Assembly: GCA_027619975.1 (NCBI GenBank)
Contig: JAQCGX010000001.1
Span: 62,001 to 126,000 of the forward strand
DNA length: 64,000 bases
Reading direction: 5' to 3'
From: Nitrospinota bacterium
Lineage (GTDB): Bacteria > Nitrospinota > Nitrospinia > Nitrospinales > VA-1
Shown: piece after piece, positions 27,291-36,170 of the stretch
How the letters are laid out: each line of letters begins with the position of its first letter
How positions within the stretch are numbered: position 1 is the first letter of the stretch
Made by a program: the position numbers and the translations under genes
The notes under the pieces: model-generated
Databases searched by the model: none
What the model saw: the letters and a program-made list of their open reading frames with translations, nothing else
Told to the model about the DNA's origin: nothing

Positions 27291-28928
27291 ATGTTTCAAA
27301 AAAAAGAAAATACCAGGTCTTCCCCAAGTTTTAAAGGGGAAGAGAGAAGCTTTCGCCGCAAGTCGGTGAAGGCCGGTTTATTGTTTTCTGATTTGAAACC
27401 CTTCTGCAAAGAGAAAAAACTTCGGGCCGATCTGATTGATATCGGTTACGGAGGCGCCCGAATATCTACGCCCACGCCACTGAAAAAAGGAACGTGGATC
27501 CACCCCCTCACCTATGACGATTCCGCCAAAGACAATCGTTCGGGCTCTCTTCTTAAATCAGCCTGGAATGACAAGGCTAAAGTGGTTTGGGAGAAGGTCC
27601 ATGCATCGAATAAGGAATCCACAAAGACAAATTATACCTACGGATTGGAATTTGCCAACGATAGGAAGGAAATTATAAAATACAGGTTTTTCAAGTTCCT
27701 TCCCAAACTGGTAACCCTTTTTCTTGTTTTAGGCACCCTCAATGTTTTGTATTTGAAATGGTTCAATGTTTTTTATTTTTGGTATCAACCGGTTTTAAAT
27801 GTTTACAGCATAATCATCTCCGTTTATATCCTTTCCCGATTTATATTTTCCGCATTCTACCGACCTCCTGAAGACAAAAACCACTTTCCGACGATCACTG
27901 TGGTGATTGCCTGTAAAAATGAAGAAGAATCCATTCGCCGCACCATTGACTGTGTGTATCGGTCGGATTACCCCAGTGACCGTCTTGAGGTGATCGCGGT
28001 GAATGATGGGTCTACCGACGATACCCTAAAGGAAATGAGTCAGTCGGCTCGGGAGCATCCTTCATTAAAAGTCGTCAACTTTAAAGCAAACCAGGGCAAG
28101 CGGCAGGGCATGGCCATCGGCGCCCGCATGGCGAAAGGCGAGATTCTGGTATACATCGATTCGGACAGTTTTGTCCGGCCGGATGGCCTGTATAAAATCG
28201 TGCAGGGATTTTATGACTCGGCAGTCGGAGCGGTTTGCGGGCACGCCAATGTGACCAACGCCAGAGTCAATGCGCTGACCAAGATGCAGGAAGTCCGTTA
28301 CTTTGTCGCCTTCCACGTGATCAAGGCGGCGGAATCGCTTTTTTCAACCGTGTCCTGTTGTTCGGGATGCTTCGCGGCCTACCGGCGCAAATACGTGATG
28401 GACATCCTCGATCCGTGGTTGAATCAGAAATTCCTCGGCATTCCAGCCACTTTTGGAGATGACCGCAGTCTGACCAATTTTATGCTCAGGAAATACCGGG
28501 TGATTTATCATGCCGAGGCGGTGTGCACCACTCTCGTTCCGGAAAAATATGGAGTATTTTTTCGTCAACAACTACGCTGGAAAAAATCCTGGATTCGGGA
28601 AAGTTTTCTGGCCTGCCTTTTCATGTGGAAGAGGCATCCGGTAGCGGCTTTTTTCTTTTACTGCGGTGTGATGTTCCCGATCATCGCCCCTTTCATTGTG
28701 TTGAATGCCATTGTTCTCCCTCTTCTGGGATTTTGGCCGTTCTCCTATCTTTATATCTATGGGGCTATGTTAATGGCAGGTCTTTACAGTCTCGTTTACC
28801 TGGCTTTTTACCGCAACAGTTTGTGGGTTTACGGGATATCGTTTTCTGTTTTCTACATGCTGGTTCTGGTCTGGCAAACCTATTATGCCCTTTTTACCGT
28901 TCGGCAAAACCATTGGGGGACGCGGTGA
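27291..28928 (+). CDS. PilZ-fused processive glycosyltransferase (GT2, PgaC/hyaluronan-synthase-like)
   Basis: About 545 residues from ATG 27291; a TTG 10 codons upstream is an alternative. Residues about 15-135 form a PilZ-like c-di-GMP domain (SFRRKSVKAG, LIDIGYGGARIS, YGLEFAN). TM helices lead into a GT2 domain near residue 200: VVIACKNEEESI, AVNDGSTDD, a DSDS metal site, GDDRSLTNFML and the processivity motif QQLRWKKSW. C-terminal TM helices complete the membrane pore. It should polymerise a UDP-sugar (GlcNAc by analogy with PgaC) and push the chain across the inner membrane under direct c-di-GMP control. It is 3 bases upstream of the next gene. Confidence 0.88.
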   Translation: MFQKKENTRSSPSFKGEERSFRRKSVKAGLLFSDLKPFCKEKKLRADLIDIGYGGARISTPTPLKKGTWIHPLTYDDSAKDNRSGSLLKSAWNDKAKVVWEKVHASNKESTKTNYTYGLEFANDRKEIIKYRFFKFLPKLVTLFLVLGTLNVLYLKWFNVFYFWYQPVLNVYSIIISVYILSRFIFSAFYRPPEDKNHFPTITVVIACKNEEESIRRTIDCVYRSDYPSDRLEVIAVNDGSTDDTLKEMSQSAREHPSLKVVNFKANQGKRQGMAIGARMAKGEILVYIDSDSFVRPDGLYKIVQGFYDSAVGAVCGHANVTNARVNALTKMQEVRYFVAFHVIKAAESLFSTVSCCSGCFAAYRRKYVMDILDPWLNQKFLGIPATFGDDRSLTNFMLRKYRVIYHAEAVCTTLVPEKYGVFFRQQLRWKKSWIRESFLACLFMWKRHPVAAFFFYCGVMFPIIAPFIVLNAIVLPLLGFWPFSYLYIYGAMLMAGLYSLVYLAFYRNSLWVYGISFSVFYMLVLVWQTYYALFTVRQNHWGTR

Positions 28929-28931
28929 ATC

Positions 28932-30920
28932 ATGAGTGATCACAAAGAGGCTTACGCGTCCCGAACTTTTAAAAGGGATAAATATGCATGGGCCTTTCTG
29001 ATTTTATTTGTTCTGGTTTTTTTTCTGACAACCGGGGGATGGAGAGAAACCGATCGAATTATCTTCCGCTCATGGGAAGAGCCGGTATCGAACCAGGCCA
29101 CTTTGACGGTTCTGGAATTTGACCGGGTGGTTTGGAAAGAAAACGAAGGGCATGTTCATCAGGACCAGTTGCGCAAACAGTTGAATGCTCTTGCTGAAGA
29201 TGGTTTCGAAGCGGTTTCGATAAGGGATGTTTTTAACTTTTATTACAAAGGTGACAAGTTACCGGAAAAATCAATTCTTCTGATTTTTGCAAATGGTTAT
29301 TTGGAAACCTATTCGGTGGTTGATCCAGTTTTGAAGCAAATGCATTGGCCTGCGGTGGTATCTCTGATCACGGACCCGATCGTTCGACGGGAAACATTTT
29401 TCCTGTACTGGGACCGATTGCGACAAATGGTGGATAGCGGTATTTGGGACATTATTGCAGGAGGACACTTCAGCCCCAAAGGGATGACGAATGCCAGTAA
29501 ATTAATGGACGGGTTTTACACTCGCAAGGTTGGGATTACAAAGGATGAACGGGAGGCAATCGATCGCGAAAATTCCGCAAGTATTCTTCAGGATTATAAA
29601 GTCAGCCATGACTTGATTGAAGAAAATATTTCTGGATATAAAACTCTGGCTCATTCTCATAGGTATTTAAAAAATGCTAATTTGGGCTATTTAAGCAGTG
29701 CGCCTTTGAAACAATTATTTAAATTGGGATTTGTGGATAGTTTTGTCGGAGTCAACAGGGAAAAATCCGATCCGTATCGACTGCGACGGCTCAGAGTCCA
29801 ACCCGGCTGGCAACCGGAAACCCTCCTTGCAGTGACGAATAAAGCCATTCACGCAACGGCTATATCAGAGCAGAGAGCAACTGAGGAAGATTCTGCCTGG
29901 TTTACCAGCGAGGGGGAGTTGGTGGAAACATCAGGCCACTCAAATATTTTATCTAGCAAAAAATTAAGTGTTGTCCGCAACCAGAGCGTAGATCCAGAAA
30001 CCTATCTTCACGGGTTTCCCGGAACGTCGATCTTTCTTCCAGGGGGAAATAGTGCGGACAATTGGATTTTAGACGTCAATTTCCGCCTGAATCGCGGTGA
30101 GTTCTGGATTCGACAAAACTCTATTGAGCAAGGAGAGGAATGGCGATTGGGTGGCAATGAAAATAACCTCAATTTGCAATATCGAGTGGCTCACGGCAAA
30201 TACGAAAATCTTGCCAGTTCCAGAGCAGGATTTCCTCTGGAAGTGTGGCAGCATGTGCGACTCATCAGACGAGGGCAAGGGGTTATTGTCAATTTGAATG
30301 GCGAGAGGTTGTGGAATTTGCCCGTTCATTTGCGGTCCGCTTTAAAGGGAGATATTGCGCTTCAGGTTTGGTCTGGGGACGGTGAAGGCGCCTTGAAATT
30401 GAAGAATGCCAAGGTCTCATTTTTCCCCCATGACATTCGCTGGTTGGAAGAGTACCCGCAAGAAATGGACGTTCAGCGCCTCATCCAAGACGCGGAGCGG
30501 GTTTCAGGAGTGACAACGGTCACGCATGTGATTCAAGGGGACCGATTGCAATCGGTTCCTTATGATAAAGACTTGTTCCAAATCATTGCTCACAGATATA
30601 GCTGGGATTTTATTCCGACTGTAAGCCTCCTGTCTGAGAAAAAAACATCGAAACATGAAGACGCGAGTTTCGGTTATTTGTGGATGTCTGAAATCCAGAC
30701 TTTGGTGAAACAAAACCAATGGACTCACGTGCACCTGGATTTGAGTAAACAGACCACTGAAATGAAACCGGAGGGGTCTGTCCGTTTTTCGGAGTTAAAG
30801 GCGGAACTGGAAAACATGGATTGTCAGTTGCTGGTAACTGCCAGAGGCAGGTCGGATATCGGGCAATCAATTGAAGATTCAACTGAAACGTTGTCGAGCG
30901 ATCGTCTGAGTACGTTGTGA
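28932..30920 (+). CDS. Membrane-anchored pseudo-deacetylase with LamG-like domain
   Basis: A 662-residue protein with one N-terminal TM helix (YAWAFLILFVLVFFLTTGGW). Residues about 50-200 follow the PgaB/NodB fold (LNALAEDGFEAVSIRDVF, KSILLIFANGYLETYSVVD, AVVSLITD). The catalytic TFDDG motif is replaced by IFANGY and no H-x3-H metal site is visible, so it is probably inactive. Residues about 350-510 resemble a LamG/concanavalin sugar-binding sandwich (FRLNRGEFWIRQN, WQHVRLIRRGQG). The C-terminal 150 residues may be a partial TIM-barrel. It probably binds or guides polymer in the periplasm. Its stop overlaps the next start by 4 bases. Confidence 0.65.
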   Translation: MSDHKEAYASRTFKRDKYAWAFLILFVLVFFLTTGGWRETDRIIFRSWEEPVSNQATLTVLEFDRVVWKENEGHVHQDQLRKQLNALAEDGFEAVSIRDVFNFYYKGDKLPEKSILLIFANGYLETYSVVDPVLKQMHWPAVVSLITDPIVRRETFFLYWDRLRQMVDSGIWDIIAGGHFSPKGMTNASKLMDGFYTRKVGITKDEREAIDRENSASILQDYKVSHDLIEENISGYKTLAHSHRYLKNANLGYLSSAPLKQLFKLGFVDSFVGVNREKSDPYRLRRLRVQPGWQPETLLAVTNKAIHATAISEQRATEEDSAWFTSEGELVETSGHSNILSSKKLSVVRNQSVDPETYLHGFPGTSIFLPGGNSADNWILDVNFRLNRGEFWIRQNSIEQGEEWRLGGNENNLNLQYRVAHGKYENLASSRAGFPLEVWQHVRLIRRGQGVIVNLNGERLWNLPVHLRSALKGDIALQVWSGDGEGALKLKNAKVSFFPHDIRWLEEYPQEMDVQRLIQDAERVSGVTTVTHVIQGDRLQSVPYDKDLFQIIAHRYSWDFIPTVSLLSEKKTSKHEDASFGYLWMSEIQTLVKQNQWTHVHLDLSKQTTEMKPEGSVRFSELKAELENMDCQLLVTARGRSDIGQSIEDSTETLSSDRLSTL

Positions 30921-33900
30921 TTCTATTTAAAGAAGGTTCTGTGAATGTAAGGATGTTGTGCTGTGTGGCAACACTTTGCGTTTTTAAATTAGCTTTTATC
31001 CCTCAGATTGTTTTTGCCGGGAGTGAAGGGCAGGATGCCCTGGATCAGGGAACACAACTTTACAAGAGGGGCGAATATCAGGAAGCCATAGCCTCCTTTA
31101 AAAAAGCAACCGCTATTGATCCGGGGATCATCAAGGCCTGGGAGAATTTAGGTTGGGCTTATTACAAGTCGGGTGAGACAAATAAGGCTCTGCAGACTTG
31201 GGAAACCATCCTTAAAGTGCAACCGGACAATCAGGACATTCGTAGGGCCGTTGGAATTTTGTTAATGGAAACCAATCAATGGCGGCGTGCCATCCCTCAT
31301 CTGACCGCAAGCCTGAAATCAGACCCGAATCAAAACCTCGTTCGCTTGCGTTTGGGAAAAGCCCATCAAGAAATTGGCCAAACGCGCCGCGCTGTGGGTC
31401 TTTTCAAACAGGCATTAAAAATACAGCCAGATAGTTTGGAGGCTCTTGCCCATCTAACTGATAGCTATGAAAAATCAGGTCAACGGGACTTGACGGTTTC
31501 ATTATTTAAATTTTTTTTAGCGTCGTACTCCGGTTCCCTCAACGATGAAACAAGAGAATGGGTTGCCGTTAAATTGTCCAGCCTGTTTGCCCGTCAGGGA
31601 GACGAACTGTATAGAAGAAGCCGGTTCAAACAAGCTGAAGCGGCCTACAAACAAGCTTTGAACTGGAAACCGGGAAGTAAAACCATCCTGCAGAATCTGG
31701 GGTGGGCCATGGAAGAACAAGAAAAATACGATGAAGCGGTGAAAGCATGGCTCAAAATGGTGGACCTCGGTTATACAGGGTTTCAATTATTCCACCAGAT
31801 TGCGAATGCCTATTACCATTCCGGAAAGATGGAGCAGGCGGAAATTTGGTATCAGAACACGGCGGGGATAGACCCCTCCAACCAGAATGTGCAGTTGCGG
31901 TTGTTTGAACTGGCATTGGGAAAAAATGAAATCCCGCCTGCGCTAACGGCATTGCATCAGGCGGTTGCTTTTCATCCGATGGATCAAAACTGGCTCCTTT
32001 CGGTCACCAATCATTTCATTCGAAATAGTAGCATTGACCAGGGCCTTGAGTTTTTTCATCATCAGCTTTCCATTTCCTCAAATTCTAAAACCACGAACCG
32101 GGTTTTAGGGCGAATGTATGCCAAAAAGGGCGCCCTCGAGCGAGAACTTGGAAATGGTGAAAGGGCAATGTGGAATTATGAACAAGCAATTTTGCTCGAT
32201 GAGAAGAATGCCTCTGCCTATAGGGATTTAGGATGGCTCTATCAGAGTGCAGACCAAAGGGGTGAAAGCGAAAGGGTATGGCAACAGTATCATGAAAAAA
32301 ATCCAGATAAAGCGGAACCCTATAATTTATTGGCGCGATTGTATTTGAATCAGGGAGAGTATGACAAGTCTCTGGTAGAGCTCCAAAAGAGTTTGCAGAT
32401 TCACCCGGATCAGCGAGACCCGCAATTATTGCAGGCCAAGGCATTGTATTGGAGTAAGAAATATCCAGAAGCGATGGAAGTCGTGAATCGCATTGTTCAG
32501 GAATACCACAATCACCTCCCCATTCAGTATTTTTATGGAGAGGTATTGATGCGGCAAAAGGACTTCAAGAAGGGACAGGTTCAATGGAGGAAAGTGTTGG
32601 ACATGGGATCAATCGCTCCCAGAGCTCATTTTTATTGGATAAAATCATTGTACGAAGTTGGGGAGTATGAGACAGCTGTCAAGGAAGCGCAAAAATTCCT
32701 CAATCACCACCAACCTTACAGGCCGGTGATTAAACTTTTAGTGGACGATGCCTTGTTCCGTCAGGACAAAGAGCAGGCGGTTTTCTGGTACGAAACATTA
32801 TTGAAAAACTTTGGAAACCATCCGGGCGAATGGCTGGAACTGGCAAAACTGCTTATAGATCTGGATCGTTTCTCTCAGGCAAATGAAACTTTGAAGAAAG
32901 CTGAAAGAATATTTCCCGGTGATGTGGATATTCAACTTGGCATAGGGGATTTGCAGTCCAGGGAAGATGAGCACGAAGACGCACTGAAAATTTTTAGAAT
33001 CATCAGCAAAAAATACCCTGATAACCGGAGAGCCTATCTCGGAACCTTTCGCGCTTTAAAAGCGCTTGGACACTTGGAGGAAGCGATTCAACATCTGCAA
33101 TCCAACCAACATATTTTTCTAAAAGATTATGAAGTGAATCTGGAAACGGGAAACATGAGGGTTGCGAAGAAAGATTCAGACGGGGCAACAAACTATTATT
33201 CCCGTGTGGCAGACCCAATAAAACCTGGGAAATATATTCCAATTCTGCTTTATCACGGGTTGAGCGACCATCCCCGGAGCCGCAACTTATGGGTACAACG
33301 TTTCGACCAACAATTAAAAGCCTTGGCCGATGCAGGCTACACACCTCTCACGGTGGCTGAATTGGGAGAGATGGTGAATCAGAAACGTTCTTTTCCTGAA
33401 AAGCCGATTTTGATTACCTTTGATGACGCTCGACGGGATGCTTTTCAACTGGGGGACCCAGTTCTAAAAAAATATGGCATGAAAGCAACCATGTTTATCC
33501 CCACAGCCAAAATTAATGCTGAGGACCCTTTCTTTTCCGATTGGAACAAGAATCGTGAATACGCGGGGTCGGGTCGGTGGGATTTTCAGGCACACGGGCA
33601 TCAGGCTCATGATCCTATTATGATCGATTTCACTGGAGCGAAGGGGAATTTTCTGACCCATTTACGTTGGTTGGATAAAAACAACAGGCAGGAAACTTCA
33701 GCTGAATTTTATGCCCGATTGGAGGGGGATTATCAGCAAAATGGTAAAATTCTAAACACTCAAATTCCTGGATTGAACGTGGTTGGTTACGCGTATCCTT
33801 TTTCAGAAGCGGGACAATCTCAGAACGGAAATGCAAAATCAGCCAGGGCGATCAATCAGGTTATTTTGGAAAAATATTTTCAATTCGGATTTATTCAGGA

Positions 33901-35110
33901 CCAGACGGGGTACAACTGGATTGAGACGGGAAATGTCAAAACTTCTTTATTACGCCGTTTCTCGGTTCCGCGGGACTGGGATGGAAAGCGGTTGATCCAG
34001 CACCTTGTTGAAACCCACCCGTCGCATAGGGCCAAGGTCGCGCTGGCAAAATCCCAGTATTGGAATGGGCAATACTCCGATGCCGGAAAAACTTTCTCTA
34101 ACCTCATTTCGCAGGAACCGGGGTTGAAAGATAAATTTCGATTCACCCTTGCCAATATTTCGTATCAAGGCGGAAACTATCAGGATTCAAAAGAGCTTCT
34201 GGAAGGCATTTCCGATCAGGAGTCTGTTCTTAATCCAAAAATAGACGCATTGGAAGAAGCCGTGGACTGGAAAACCCGGCCTCGCGTTTCAGGGGCCTTT
34301 GAATTTTTCCACGATTCCAATGACCGGGTCAATCATTCCGAGTCGGCAAAAATCTATTTTCCTCTACAGATTCCCCTGGAACTGACGCTGGAAGGCGGCA
34401 TTCTTAATTTTAAGGAAAAGGATCGGACGGATATTGATGGTGGTCAGGTGAGCGCGGGGTTTCATTGGCGAGGCTGGAAATCATTGCACCTGGAAGGATC
34501 GGTTCGTCACCGTTCCCTGTCTCAAAGGCAGGACACGCAAAACTATTGGGGTTCTGCGCAATACCGGAAAAATAACCACACGATCCGCTTCAATGGGTCG
34601 AGAAGAGACATCGATACTGTCCGGGCCCTAGAGCAGGAAATTCAGGTGAAAACATACAGCCTGGGATATCAGACACGGTTTTCTTCGGCTCTTCTGGGTC
34701 GGCTGGGAGTTTCCTACCAGGATTATGACGACGGTAATACGGGGTTTGATATCAGAGCGGGTTTGAGCTATCAATTGCCCGTTTTAATAAATTGGAAAAT
34801 TGGAGCCGATCTTTCCTTCAGGGATTCCGAGTTTGAAGCCAGGGAATATTATACTCCCGACCAGTTGTTGATCGGGGTCGTGAGGTTTCTTTATAAACGG
34901 CGGTTGAGCAAAGATGCCGAGGTCCGGGCTGAATTTGGGGTTGGCGGGGCGGATGATAAGGTGAACGGCGTTCGTTGGGTGAGTAACGGTGGATTCAATT
35001 TTGATTATTTTCTGACCCGAAAATTAAAGGCGGGTCTGGCGACACAGTTTTCCGTGGTTCCCGGTTATGACAGCGTCAATGTGCAAGCCGTCATGGGTTA
35101 CCGTTTTTAA
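30917..35110 (+). CDS. PgaA-PgaB-like fusion: TPR, NodB deacetylase and outer-membrane beta-barrel
   Basis: A 1397-residue exported protein. GTG 30917 overlaps the upstream stop; ATG 30953 directly precedes the signal peptide (LCCVATLCVFKLAFIPQIVFAG) and may be the true start. Residues about 38-760 are some 18 TPR repeats. Residues about 770-1000 are a NodB polysaccharide deacetylase with YIPILLYHG, ITFDDARRD, AHGHQAHD and YAYPFSEAG, so the active site appears intact. More TPR follows. Residues about 1115-1397 have alternating beta strands and end in Tyr-Arg-Phe, the C-terminal aromatic signal of outer-membrane barrels. It joins the deacetylation (PgaB) and export (PgaA) functions in one chain. 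The 3' end overlaps the convergent GH18 gene by 20 bases. Confidence 0.85.
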   Translation: MILFKEGSVNVRMLCCVATLCVFKLAFIPQIVFAGSEGQDALDQGTQLYKRGEYQEAIASFKKATAIDPGIIKAWENLGWAYYKSGETNKALQTWETILKVQPDNQDIRRAVGILLMETNQWRRAIPHLTASLKSDPNQNLVRLRLGKAHQEIGQTRRAVGLFKQALKIQPDSLEALAHLTDSYEKSGQRDLTVSLFKFFLASYSGSLNDETREWVAVKLSSLFARQGDELYRRSRFKQAEAAYKQALNWKPGSKTILQNLGWAMEEQEKYDEAVKAWLKMVDLGYTGFQLFHQIANAYYHSGKMEQAEIWYQNTAGIDPSNQNVQLRLFELALGKNEIPPALTALHQAVAFHPMDQNWLLSVTNHFIRNSSIDQGLEFFHHQLSISSNSKTTNRVLGRMYAKKGALERELGNGERAMWNYEQAILLDEKNASAYRDLGWLYQSADQRGESERVWQQYHEKNPDKAEPYNLLARLYLNQGEYDKSLVELQKSLQIHPDQRDPQLLQAKALYWSKKYPEAMEVVNRIVQEYHNHLPIQYFYGEVLMRQKDFKKGQVQWRKVLDMGSIAPRAHFYWIKSLYEVGEYETAVKEAQKFLNHHQPYRPVIKLLVDDALFRQDKEQAVFWYETLLKNFGNHPGEWLELAKLLIDLDRFSQANETLKKAERIFPGDVDIQLGIGDLQSREDEHEDALKIFRIISKKYPDNRRAYLGTFRALKALGHLEEAIQHLQSNQHIFLKDYEVNLETGNMRVAKKDSDGATNYYSRVADPIKPGKYIPILLYHGLSDHPRSRNLWVQRFDQQLKALADAGYTPLTVAELGEMVNQKRSFPEKPILITFDDARRDAFQLGDPVLKKYGMKATMFIPTAKINAEDPFFSDWNKNREYAGSGRWDFQAHGHQAHDPIMIDFTGAKGNFLTHLRWLDKNNRQETSAEFYARLEGDYQQNGKILNTQIPGLNVVGYAYPFSEAGQSQNGNAKSARAINQVILEKYFQFGFIQDQTGYNWIETGNVKTSLLRRFSVPRDWDGKRLIQHLVETHPSHRAKVALAKSQYWNGQYSDAGKTFSNLISQEPGLKDKFRFTLANISYQGGNYQDSKELLEGISDQESVLNPKIDALEEAVDWKTRPRVSGAFEFFHDSNDRVNHSESAKIYFPLQIPLELTLEGGILNFKEKDRTDIDGGQVSAGFHWRGWKSLHLEGSVRHRSLSQRQDTQNYWGSAQYRKNNHTIRFNGSRRDIDTVRALEQEIQVKTYSLGYQTRFSSALLGRLGVSYQDYDDGNTGFDIRAGLSYQLPVLINWKIGADLSFRDSEFEAREYYTPDQLLIGVVRFLYKRRLSKDAEVRAEFGVGGADDKVNGVRWVSNGGFNFDYFLTRKLKAGLATQFSVVPGYDSVNVQAVMGYRF

Positions 35111-36170
35111 ACTGGGCTTTTAATTCCCTGGTCAACTCCGGGTCCTGCCTGCCGAAACTCCAAAACATCACCTTGTTGAATCCCAACTCCCGAATCTGCT
35201 CGACTTTAATTTTCAGACTGTGAGCGTCTTCATAATAGACGATCCCGTTGTCATCTTTTGTTTTGTAAGAAAAAAATGGAACCTGACTGGTCGATTCCCG
35301 TTCGATTTGAGCGTCGTGTTTGGTTTTTAATTGCATGGCTTGGTCGTATTGAATCGCTTCATTTTTATTGGCGCCCCAGTGCATTCCGCTGACTTTGAGG
35401 ACGGGCACGATGGTTTTTACTGCGCATTGACTTTTAGCATGATTAAGAACTTTGGAAATCCATTCAAGCGTTGCCACCGGACCCGGTTGGGTTTTTGGAT
35501 TGTGTAAATTGTACAGCATGATCTGCAATCGGTCCGCGTGCTGGCAGATTTCAGACCAATCCATTGTCCCCTGGCCCAAGGTGGACCGATTCCAGGTTTT
35601 GGGTTGGACGGTGACGGATAAGGATAGATTGCGTTTTTTTAAATCGGCGGACAGCTCGGAAATGAAACGGGTGAATAGAAGCCGGTCGTCAGGCAATAAG
35701 TTCTCGTAATCGATATCGACTCCTGAGACACCATAGCTTTCAGCCAAGTCAACAATTTCCAGGCGGTGCTTGAGACGCGAAACGTCATCCGATAAAATTT
35801 TATGAACGAGGTTGGCGTCCTTGAGAATCGATTTCTTGCCATCGATTGCTTGAACATCATTGACAATCGTCATCCAGGGTTTGAAACCGGAAGCTTTTAA
35901 GTGCTTTACCGCATCCTGATAATCGATGACTGCTGAATTAACCACGATGGGGGTTCCCTCAGAATTCAGCTGGGTGGAAAACAGAAAAATATCCTGATAG
36001 ACTCCACTTTCTTGATCGACAGTTTGCATTCCGCGTTTGAAATCCCAGTAAGTCACCCACCCGCCAAATTGGATGGAGGAACCAGCCTCCACTGCTCTGA
36101 TGGACCAGGCAATGAGAAAAATGCTGAGAATAAAAACCGCTGTCCGCCGCCTGTAGAGATGTTTTCGCAT
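35091..36170 (-). CDS. Secreted GH18-family glycoside hydrolase
   Basis: A 359-residue protein with a signal peptide (TAVFILSIFLIAWSIRAVEA). The (beta/alpha)8 GH18 core is recognised from FGGWVTYWDF at strand 1, the catalytic DxxDxDxE-type motif in SGVDIDYEN near residue 155, and YYEDAHSLKIKVEQI plus GFNKVMFWSFGRQDPEL at the last strands, as in spore-cortex YaaH-like and chitinase-like enzymes. It should cleave a GlcNAc-containing polymer. The position, convergent and overlapping the exporter gene, suggests that it trims or releases the polysaccharide made by the plus-strand genes. Confidence 0.82.
   Translation of the reverse strand: MRKHLYRRRTAVFILSIFLIAWSIRAVEAGSSIQFGGWVTYWDFKRGMQTVDQESGVYQDIFLFSTQLNSEGTPIVVNSAVIDYQDAVKHLKASGFKPWMTIVNDVQAIDGKKSILKDANLVHKILSDDVSRLKHRLEIVDLAESYGVSGVDIDYENLLPDDRLLFTRFISELSADLKKRNLSLSVTVQPKTWNRSTLGQGTMDWSEICQHADRLQIMLYNLHNPKTQPGPVATLEWISKVLNHAKSQCAVKTIVPVLKVSGMHWGANKNEAIQYDQAMQLKTKHDAQIERESTSQVPFFSYKTKDDNGIVYYEDAHSLKIKVEQIRELGFNKVMFWSFGRQDPELTRELKAQFKNGNP

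Follow-up and report, generated by a model that had tools for sequence, protein, structure and literature searches.

Four adjacent genes in a Nitrospinota bacterium were first read as carrying together the functions of a Pga-type poly-GlcNAc system in an unusual packaging. Is this locus a rearranged Pga system, or a polysaccharide machine of another kind? It lies in a window of 64,000 nucleotides (the whole stretch of DNA analysed) from a genome of 2.9 Mb in 72 contigs, whose host is a relative of the marine nitrite-oxidisers. The reading favoured here, with a probability of roughly 0.55, is a synthase-dependent exopolysaccharide system in which a c-di-GMP-gated enzyme of the HAS/NodC type would make a GlcNAc polymer; the exporter would deacetylate it, and a GH18 enzyme would trim it.

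Layout and conservation of the locus

The first three genes, with all features described in them below, lie on the forward strand. They encode a PilZ-GT2 polysaccharide synthase of 545 residues, in which membrane segments flank the GT2 core on both sides (27291..28928), a pseudo-deacetylase of 662 residues anchored by one N-terminal membrane segment (28932..30920), and a 1397-residue fusion of TPRs, an active NodB deacetylase and an outer-membrane barrel, which begins with a hydrophobic, signal-like segment (30917..35110). The fourth gene runs convergently on the reverse strand (35091..36170) and encodes a secreted GH18 glycosidase of 359 residues. The genes are spaced by 3, -4 and -20 bp, the last value being the overlap of two convergent 3' ends; the first two reproduce the spacing from which an earlier note on this DNA had argued for one functional unit.

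Both the synthase and the pseudo-deacetylase were searched in 77 Nitrospinota genomes. Full-length relatives were found in four of the five genomes of the genus (the window's own, G024, G025 and G026), and none was found among the 77 outside the genus. Elsewhere in Nitrospinota, matches to the pseudo-deacetylase are short and limited to domains of the NodB type; a single distant GT2 was found, in G012. A scan of genome contigs with two lineage-specific peptides gave true relatives in the same genus only, GT2 matches on viral contigs were partial only, and no related synthase at E <= 1e-60 was found in 398 Pseudomonadota genomes (best three candidates per genome scored, with no positive control there). 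This patchy distribution suggests horizontal acquisition of the locus.

The same four-gene order and orientation, the convergent GH18 gene included, are kept in all four genomes bearing the locus. The larC and xthA sides are common to the window and G024, only the xthA side is retained in G025, and both flanks differ in G026 (a hydrolase; gatA). Since the flanks differ between genomes and the four genes stay together, the GH18 gene travels with the other three. Each of the four is under purifying selection (dN/dS 0.09-0.30, with dS partly saturated). The four genes are one functional unit, and the co-occurrence and gene order by which the earlier note had proposed to check this claim are thus seen in four of the five genomes of the genus.

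Outside the Nitrospinota, a plasmid of Paenibacillus cellulositrophicus (NZ_CP045296, 264669-269475) carries genes for a PilZ-GT2, a pseudo-deacetylase and a GH18 enzyme, adjacent and in that order. Compared with the window proteins, identity is 43% for the synthase, 25% over 317 residues for the GH18 enzyme (single-comparison E 3e-28) and 22% over 315 residues for the pseudo-deacetylase (E 5e-16). The full order is tandem NodB protein, TviB-like nucleotide-sugar dehydrogenase, PilZ-GT2, pseudo-deacetylase and GH18. In the tandem NodB protein (L056, 5541-7055) the first domain looks degenerate (TFNG) and the second keeps TFDD and HTYSH. The dehydrogenase, a complete open reading frame closest to TviB (L056, 7070-8314), adjoins the PilZ-GT2 gene but is not listed in the gene table of PLSDB. 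The annotation near the Paenibacillus locus shows no TPR-barrel protein, as expected for an organism without an outer membrane. Because the three genes stand side by side in this one locus outside the Nitrospinota, PilZ-GT2, dead deacetylase and GH18 would form the core module, and the TPR-deacetylase-barrel protein looks like an adaptation added for the outer membrane. Their recurrence therefore argues that the locus is a variant form of a familiar type of machinery for biofilm polymers and not a PNAG locus in rearranged form.

Class and control of the synthase

The GT2 core of the synthase (residues 200-431, 27888..28583; PF13641, 2.5e-25) contains GDDR, as in hyaluronan synthases (residues 389-392, 28455..28466), and a QxxRW motif, QQLRW (residues 426-430, 28566..28580), followed by KSWIRE, which resembles HasA-like enzymes. 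The protein ends in WGTR (28914..28925), the hyaluronan-synthase gating-loop motif. The PgaC counterparts are TEDI and QRLRW-AQGG, without a WGTR-type end. Hyaluronan synthases conserve GDDR, QxxRW and the WGTR-type gating loop, all of tested function; in the WGTRG of CvHAS the W and G are required, and an R-to-K change lowers activity by about 60% (PMC11750622).

Among curated families NodC scores best (TIGR04242, 177 bits, cut-off 550), and the PgaC/IcaA equivalog gives 150.3 bits (TIGR03937, cut-off 422.3); neither cut-off is reached. The NodC/PgaC scores of 177/150 bits are similar in pattern to those of the Paenibacillus synthase (193/125) and a HasA-like enzyme (318/145), to be set against 765/81 for NodC itself, 73/648 for E. 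coli PgaC and 96/368 for a lactobacillar IcaA-like protein. In a maximum-likelihood tree, a branch with support of 100/99 joins the window clade, HasA-like enzymes and NodC and separates them from PgaC/IcaA, BcsA and others, and the window clade groups with Paenibacillus (87/92). The closest solved relatives by sequence in the PDB are hyaluronan synthases. Judged by sequence, the synthase is not a PgaC but a GT2 of the HAS/NodC type, and the rearranged Pga system that the earlier note had seen here is not supported by this assignment. Nor was a small membrane-protein gene found between the genes of the locus, whose spacing of 3 and -4 bp leaves no room for PgaD; the c-di-GMP signal of the known Pga systems works through PgaC together with PgaD (PMC8461298).

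The top rank of NodC could also mean that the product is a short chitin oligosaccharide, coupled to some other molecule, with no polymer exported. This is very improbable, given that the NodC cut-off is missed (177 vs 550 bits), that the locus lacks acyl- or sugar-transferase partners and that it encodes a putative TPR-barrel exporter. A less remote alternative, suggested by the hyaluronan-synthase motifs, is a hyaluronan-like or uronic-acid heteropolymer of GlcNAc with GlcA or GlcNAcA. A nucleotide-sugar dehydrogenase gene adjoins that of a HasA-like relative as well as the Paenibacillus homologue, and the TviB-like enzyme of the latter locus means that polymers of the family may include uronic acid. 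Two UDP-sugar dehydrogenases are encoded elsewhere in the window genome, but none of the four Nitrospinota loci contains one, and for these a heteropolymer appears unlikely.

The synthase opens with a PilZ-like domain (residues 19-123, 27345..27659) bearing R19-x3-R23 and D50-x-G-x-x-G55. PF07238 is the sole Pfam family matched by this domain in the window protein, at 18.9 bits (E 0.0019) against a cut-off of 22.5 bits. It is the top match of the domain in all five homologues, with 15-19.6 bits in the Nitrospinota proteins and 30.1 in the Paenibacillus one, which alone exceeds the cut-off. R19, R23, D50 and G55 are invariant across the five, one of them Gram-positive, and the PilZ-like domain proposed earlier is supported, at a sub-cut-off score. 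An AlphaFold model of the synthase, built on four closely related sequences, reached a pLDDT of 40.6 overall and below 50 in the PilZ region, and profile-profile comparison of the domain with E. coli PilZ domains gave nothing significant, the alignments being too shallow.

Binding of c-di-GMP is not assured, because the Nitrospinota scores are sub-cut-off and the second motif reads DxGxxG, the canonical DxSxxG with S changed to G; the RxxxR motif is present. Both points would fit a degenerate domain that no longer binds c-di-GMP and leaves the synthase under some other control, which is compatible with any reading of the polymer. The invariance of the arginines and of the D and G of both motifs, and the above-cut-off domain of the Gram-positive homologue, argue against such decay, as do seven GGDEF domains in the window genome, and we find it doubtful. 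Those GGDEF domains make c-di-GMP control plausible, and the synthase would on this reading be gated by c-di-GMP.

Deacetylases, exporter and glycosidase

The pseudo-deacetylase contains a dead PgaB-like NodB domain (29097..29861; profile E 1.6e-17 against PgaB in the PDB), with FANGY where FDDG is expected. In an alignment to E. coli PgaB, from which the active-site residues were read, H55, D114, D115, H184 and H189 are replaced by D, A, N, G and P. All five catalytic positions are lost in each of the four genomes, and four of the five in Paenibacillus. The earlier note was thus right to see an extra, inactive deacetylase-like protein with one membrane segment; of the LamG-like domain that it also placed there, what stands is a weak concanavalin-A/LamG-like region, possibly polymer-binding, with sub-threshold matches only (30054..30422). 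Residues 500-662 form a conserved C-terminal region that matches no family. Because the protein is kept in two phyla without its catalytic residues, it may act as a non-catalytic subunit for periplasmic handling or as a co-polymerase.

The third protein consists of a TPR array (residues about 40-770, 31034..33226), a PgaB-type deacetylase domain (residues about 771-1035, 33227..34021) and a predicted PgaA-like outer-membrane beta-barrel (residues 1117-1397, 34265..35107) whose last residue is F. In a PDB profile search the deacetylase domain is closest to PgaB. It keeps all five catalytic or metal residues (H55, D114, D115, H184, H189) in the window and in three of the four genomes overall. 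In G025 (L029, 2351-6334) the active site is lost in frame, with FDGG for FDDG and the His motif and third motif deleted, and the TPRs and barrel are intact; deacetylation may be dispensable there, or the copy may be decayed or affected by assembly.

The last 281 residues were modelled by AlphaFold as an up-down beta meander with a pLDDT of 49, the first 37 residues being unfolded. The best PDB match of this low-confidence model (E 4e-7, TM 0.46) is 4y25, a bacterial polysaccharide outer-membrane secretin that we regard as the barrel of PgaA, and the PelBC exporter is also among its matches. Pfam OMP_b-brl is matched by three of the four exporter homologues (best 3e-5), the window's sequence being the exception. 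Against the PgaA equivalog the exporter, with its TPRs present and its barrel known from the low-confidence model, scores 68.9 bits and does not reach the cut-off of 366.65, and profile-profile comparison of the barrel with PgaA gave nothing significant with alignments this shallow. The fusion of a deacetylase into a TPR/outer-membrane exporter, as first noted, is supported by the five PgaB residues and the match to 4y25; the structural check of the barrel came out in part, with a meander and a PgaA-like best match at low model confidence. In E. coli, the TPRs of PgaA nearest the outer membrane bind the deacetylase domain of PgaB and stimulate it 2.3-fold (PMC9384988), and the fused deacetylase of the window protein occupies that same place. 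No such fusion was seen in 398 Pseudomonadota genomes, where no deacetylase match at E <= 1e-12 lay in a frame longer than 702 aa. The export end of the locus looks Pga-like, and the Pga label would hold there only.

The glycosidase matches Pfam GH18 at 81.8 bits (9e-23), and its catalytic motif IDYE (residues 153-156, 35703..35714 on the reverse strand) is conserved in five homologues. Its nearest PDB relatives are enzymes of the YdhD, SleL and YaaH type and a probable chitinase. In characterised enzymes of the GH18 type the N-acetyl group of GlcNAc takes part in catalysis, and the bonds cleaved are beta-1,4. The GH153 domain of PgaB is absent, PgaB-model matches spanning the deacetylase part only. 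The convergent secreted GH18 enzyme of the earlier note is confirmed by its family match, its motif and the gene order of four genomes; that it replaces the PgaB hydrolase domain may hold, as an analogy only, GH153 being absent and a GH18 gene present. The probable target of the enzyme is the polymer of the locus.

A beta-1,4-GlcNAc polymer is thus hinted at twice and separately, by the class of the synthase and by the family of the glycosidase, and on sequence grounds a chitin- or chitosan-like product is more likely than a beta-1,6-linked one. Against this counts the closeness of both deacetylase domains to PgaB, whose substrate in the systems known is beta-1,6-GlcNAc. The product could accordingly be genuine PNAG, made by a repackaged Pga machinery in which a HAS-like enzyme forming beta-1,6 chains has taken the place of the original synthase. 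The likeness of both NodB domains to PgaB/IcaB, the PgaA-like barrel of the low-confidence model and the 150 bits still scored by the PgaC HMM would fit. The tree, the motifs and the HMM pattern nevertheless set the synthase outside PgaC/IcaA, PgaD and GH153 are missing and a GH18 gene adjoins, so that PNAG, the product assumed in the earlier note, is quite unlikely.

Proposed mechanism and known systems

In the favoured mechanism, the HAS/NodC-type GT2 would polymerise UDP-GlcNAc, with or without a second sugar, and thread the growing chain through its own membrane channel; from the synthase family and the neighbouring GH18, the likeliest product would be a beta-1,4-linked, chitin-like GlcNAc polymer. 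The inactive deacetylase, anchored in the membrane and bearing a ConA-like region, would handle the chain in the periplasm or serve as a non-catalytic co-polymerase subunit. In the diderm host the superhelix of TPRs in the 1397-residue protein may then guide the chain. The PgaB-like domain, held at the end of the TPRs next to the outer membrane, would partly deacetylate it before it exits through the PgaA-like barrel. The secreted GH18 enzyme would trim or clear the polymer.

More tentatively, the locus may belong to a separate class of c-di-GMP-gated exopolysaccharide machines of monoderms and diderms, with a HAS-type polymerase fused to PilZ, a GH18 enzyme and a dead deacetylase that is indispensable; in diderms, parts of Pga-type export would have been taken over in the form of one TPR-deacetylase-porin chain, and the matrix polymer would be chitin/chitosan-like or uronate-containing. 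The c-di-GMP-gated matrix polymers of bacteria include cellulose, alginate, Pel, PNAG and the listerial Pss. If the proposal is true, the product of a PilZ-bearing synthase of the HAS type joins them, which suggests that a chitosan- or hyaluronan-like polymer could be a regulated matrix component. The exporter unites naturally, in one chain, what in E. coli are two proteins, and offers a single polypeptide to study; because the separate counterparts are known to bind each other, it bears on the coupling of deacetylation to export. That a dead deacetylase is maintained in two phyla suggests that the NodB-like fold serves a structural purpose.

No description of this architecture was found in the literature searched. 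PgaABCD of E. coli and Acinetobacter resembles the locus in an exporter of TPRs and a barrel, predicted here at low model confidence, and shares a deacetylase of the PgaB type that carries the same five active-site residues, a processive GT2 and the c-di-GMP control expected here. The present locus differs in its HAS/NodC-type synthase with fused PilZ and without PgaD, in the deacetylase fused into the exporter, in the extra dead deacetylase and in having GH18 rather than GH153. Hyaluronan synthases (HasA, CvHAS, XlHAS1) share GDDR, QxxRW, WGTR and the tree branch, and are the best PDB relatives. Bacterial has operons usually carry a GlcA supply gene linked to the synthase, whereas no UDP-sugar dehydrogenase is linked in Nitrospinota; the N-terminal PilZ, the exporter and the deacetylases are further differences. 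NodC with NodB shares the GT2 branch, the expected use of GlcNAc and a NodB-fold deacetylase partner, but here the NodC cut-off is missed, a PilZ-like domain and a putative exporter are present and the deacetylases are PgaB-like.

The Paenibacillus locus shares the adjacent PilZ-GT2, pseudo-deacetylase with a weak LamG-like region, and GH18; there, in contrast, the GH18 gene is co-directional, the TPR-barrel protein is missing, and a separate tandem NodB protein and the TviB-like dehydrogenase lie upstream. A different putative exopolysaccharide set occurs in the related Nitrospinota genome G012 (contig C70; L158, 5219-11670), with a TackOD1-domain protein, a GT2, an HlyD-like protein and a TolC-like (OEP) protein whose long C-terminal extension looks glycosidase-like by eye. 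On a haloarchaeal Natrinema plasmid (L058, 2422-5287), overlapping genes for a DUF2334 protein and a GT2 resemble a synthase-deacetylase pair. Listeria Pss was rejected as the same system, its c-di-GMP receptor being a separate GGDEF protein (PMC4125290).

A GT2 and its own PilZ domain in a single chain, as predicted here, are also found in the cellulose synthase BcsA and clostridial CcsA (PMC7710045). The PilZ domain is C-terminal in BcsA and the PilZ-like one N-terminal here, the synthases belong to different branches and BcsB is absent here. Finally, Bundalovic-Torma et al. (2020) described divergent GT-deacetylase fusions with no PgaA detected (PMC7112194). They share with the present locus Pga-like deacetylases that are unusually fused in Gram-negatives, without PgaD, but the deacetylase is joined to the glycosyltransferase there and to the exporter here (PMC7112194).
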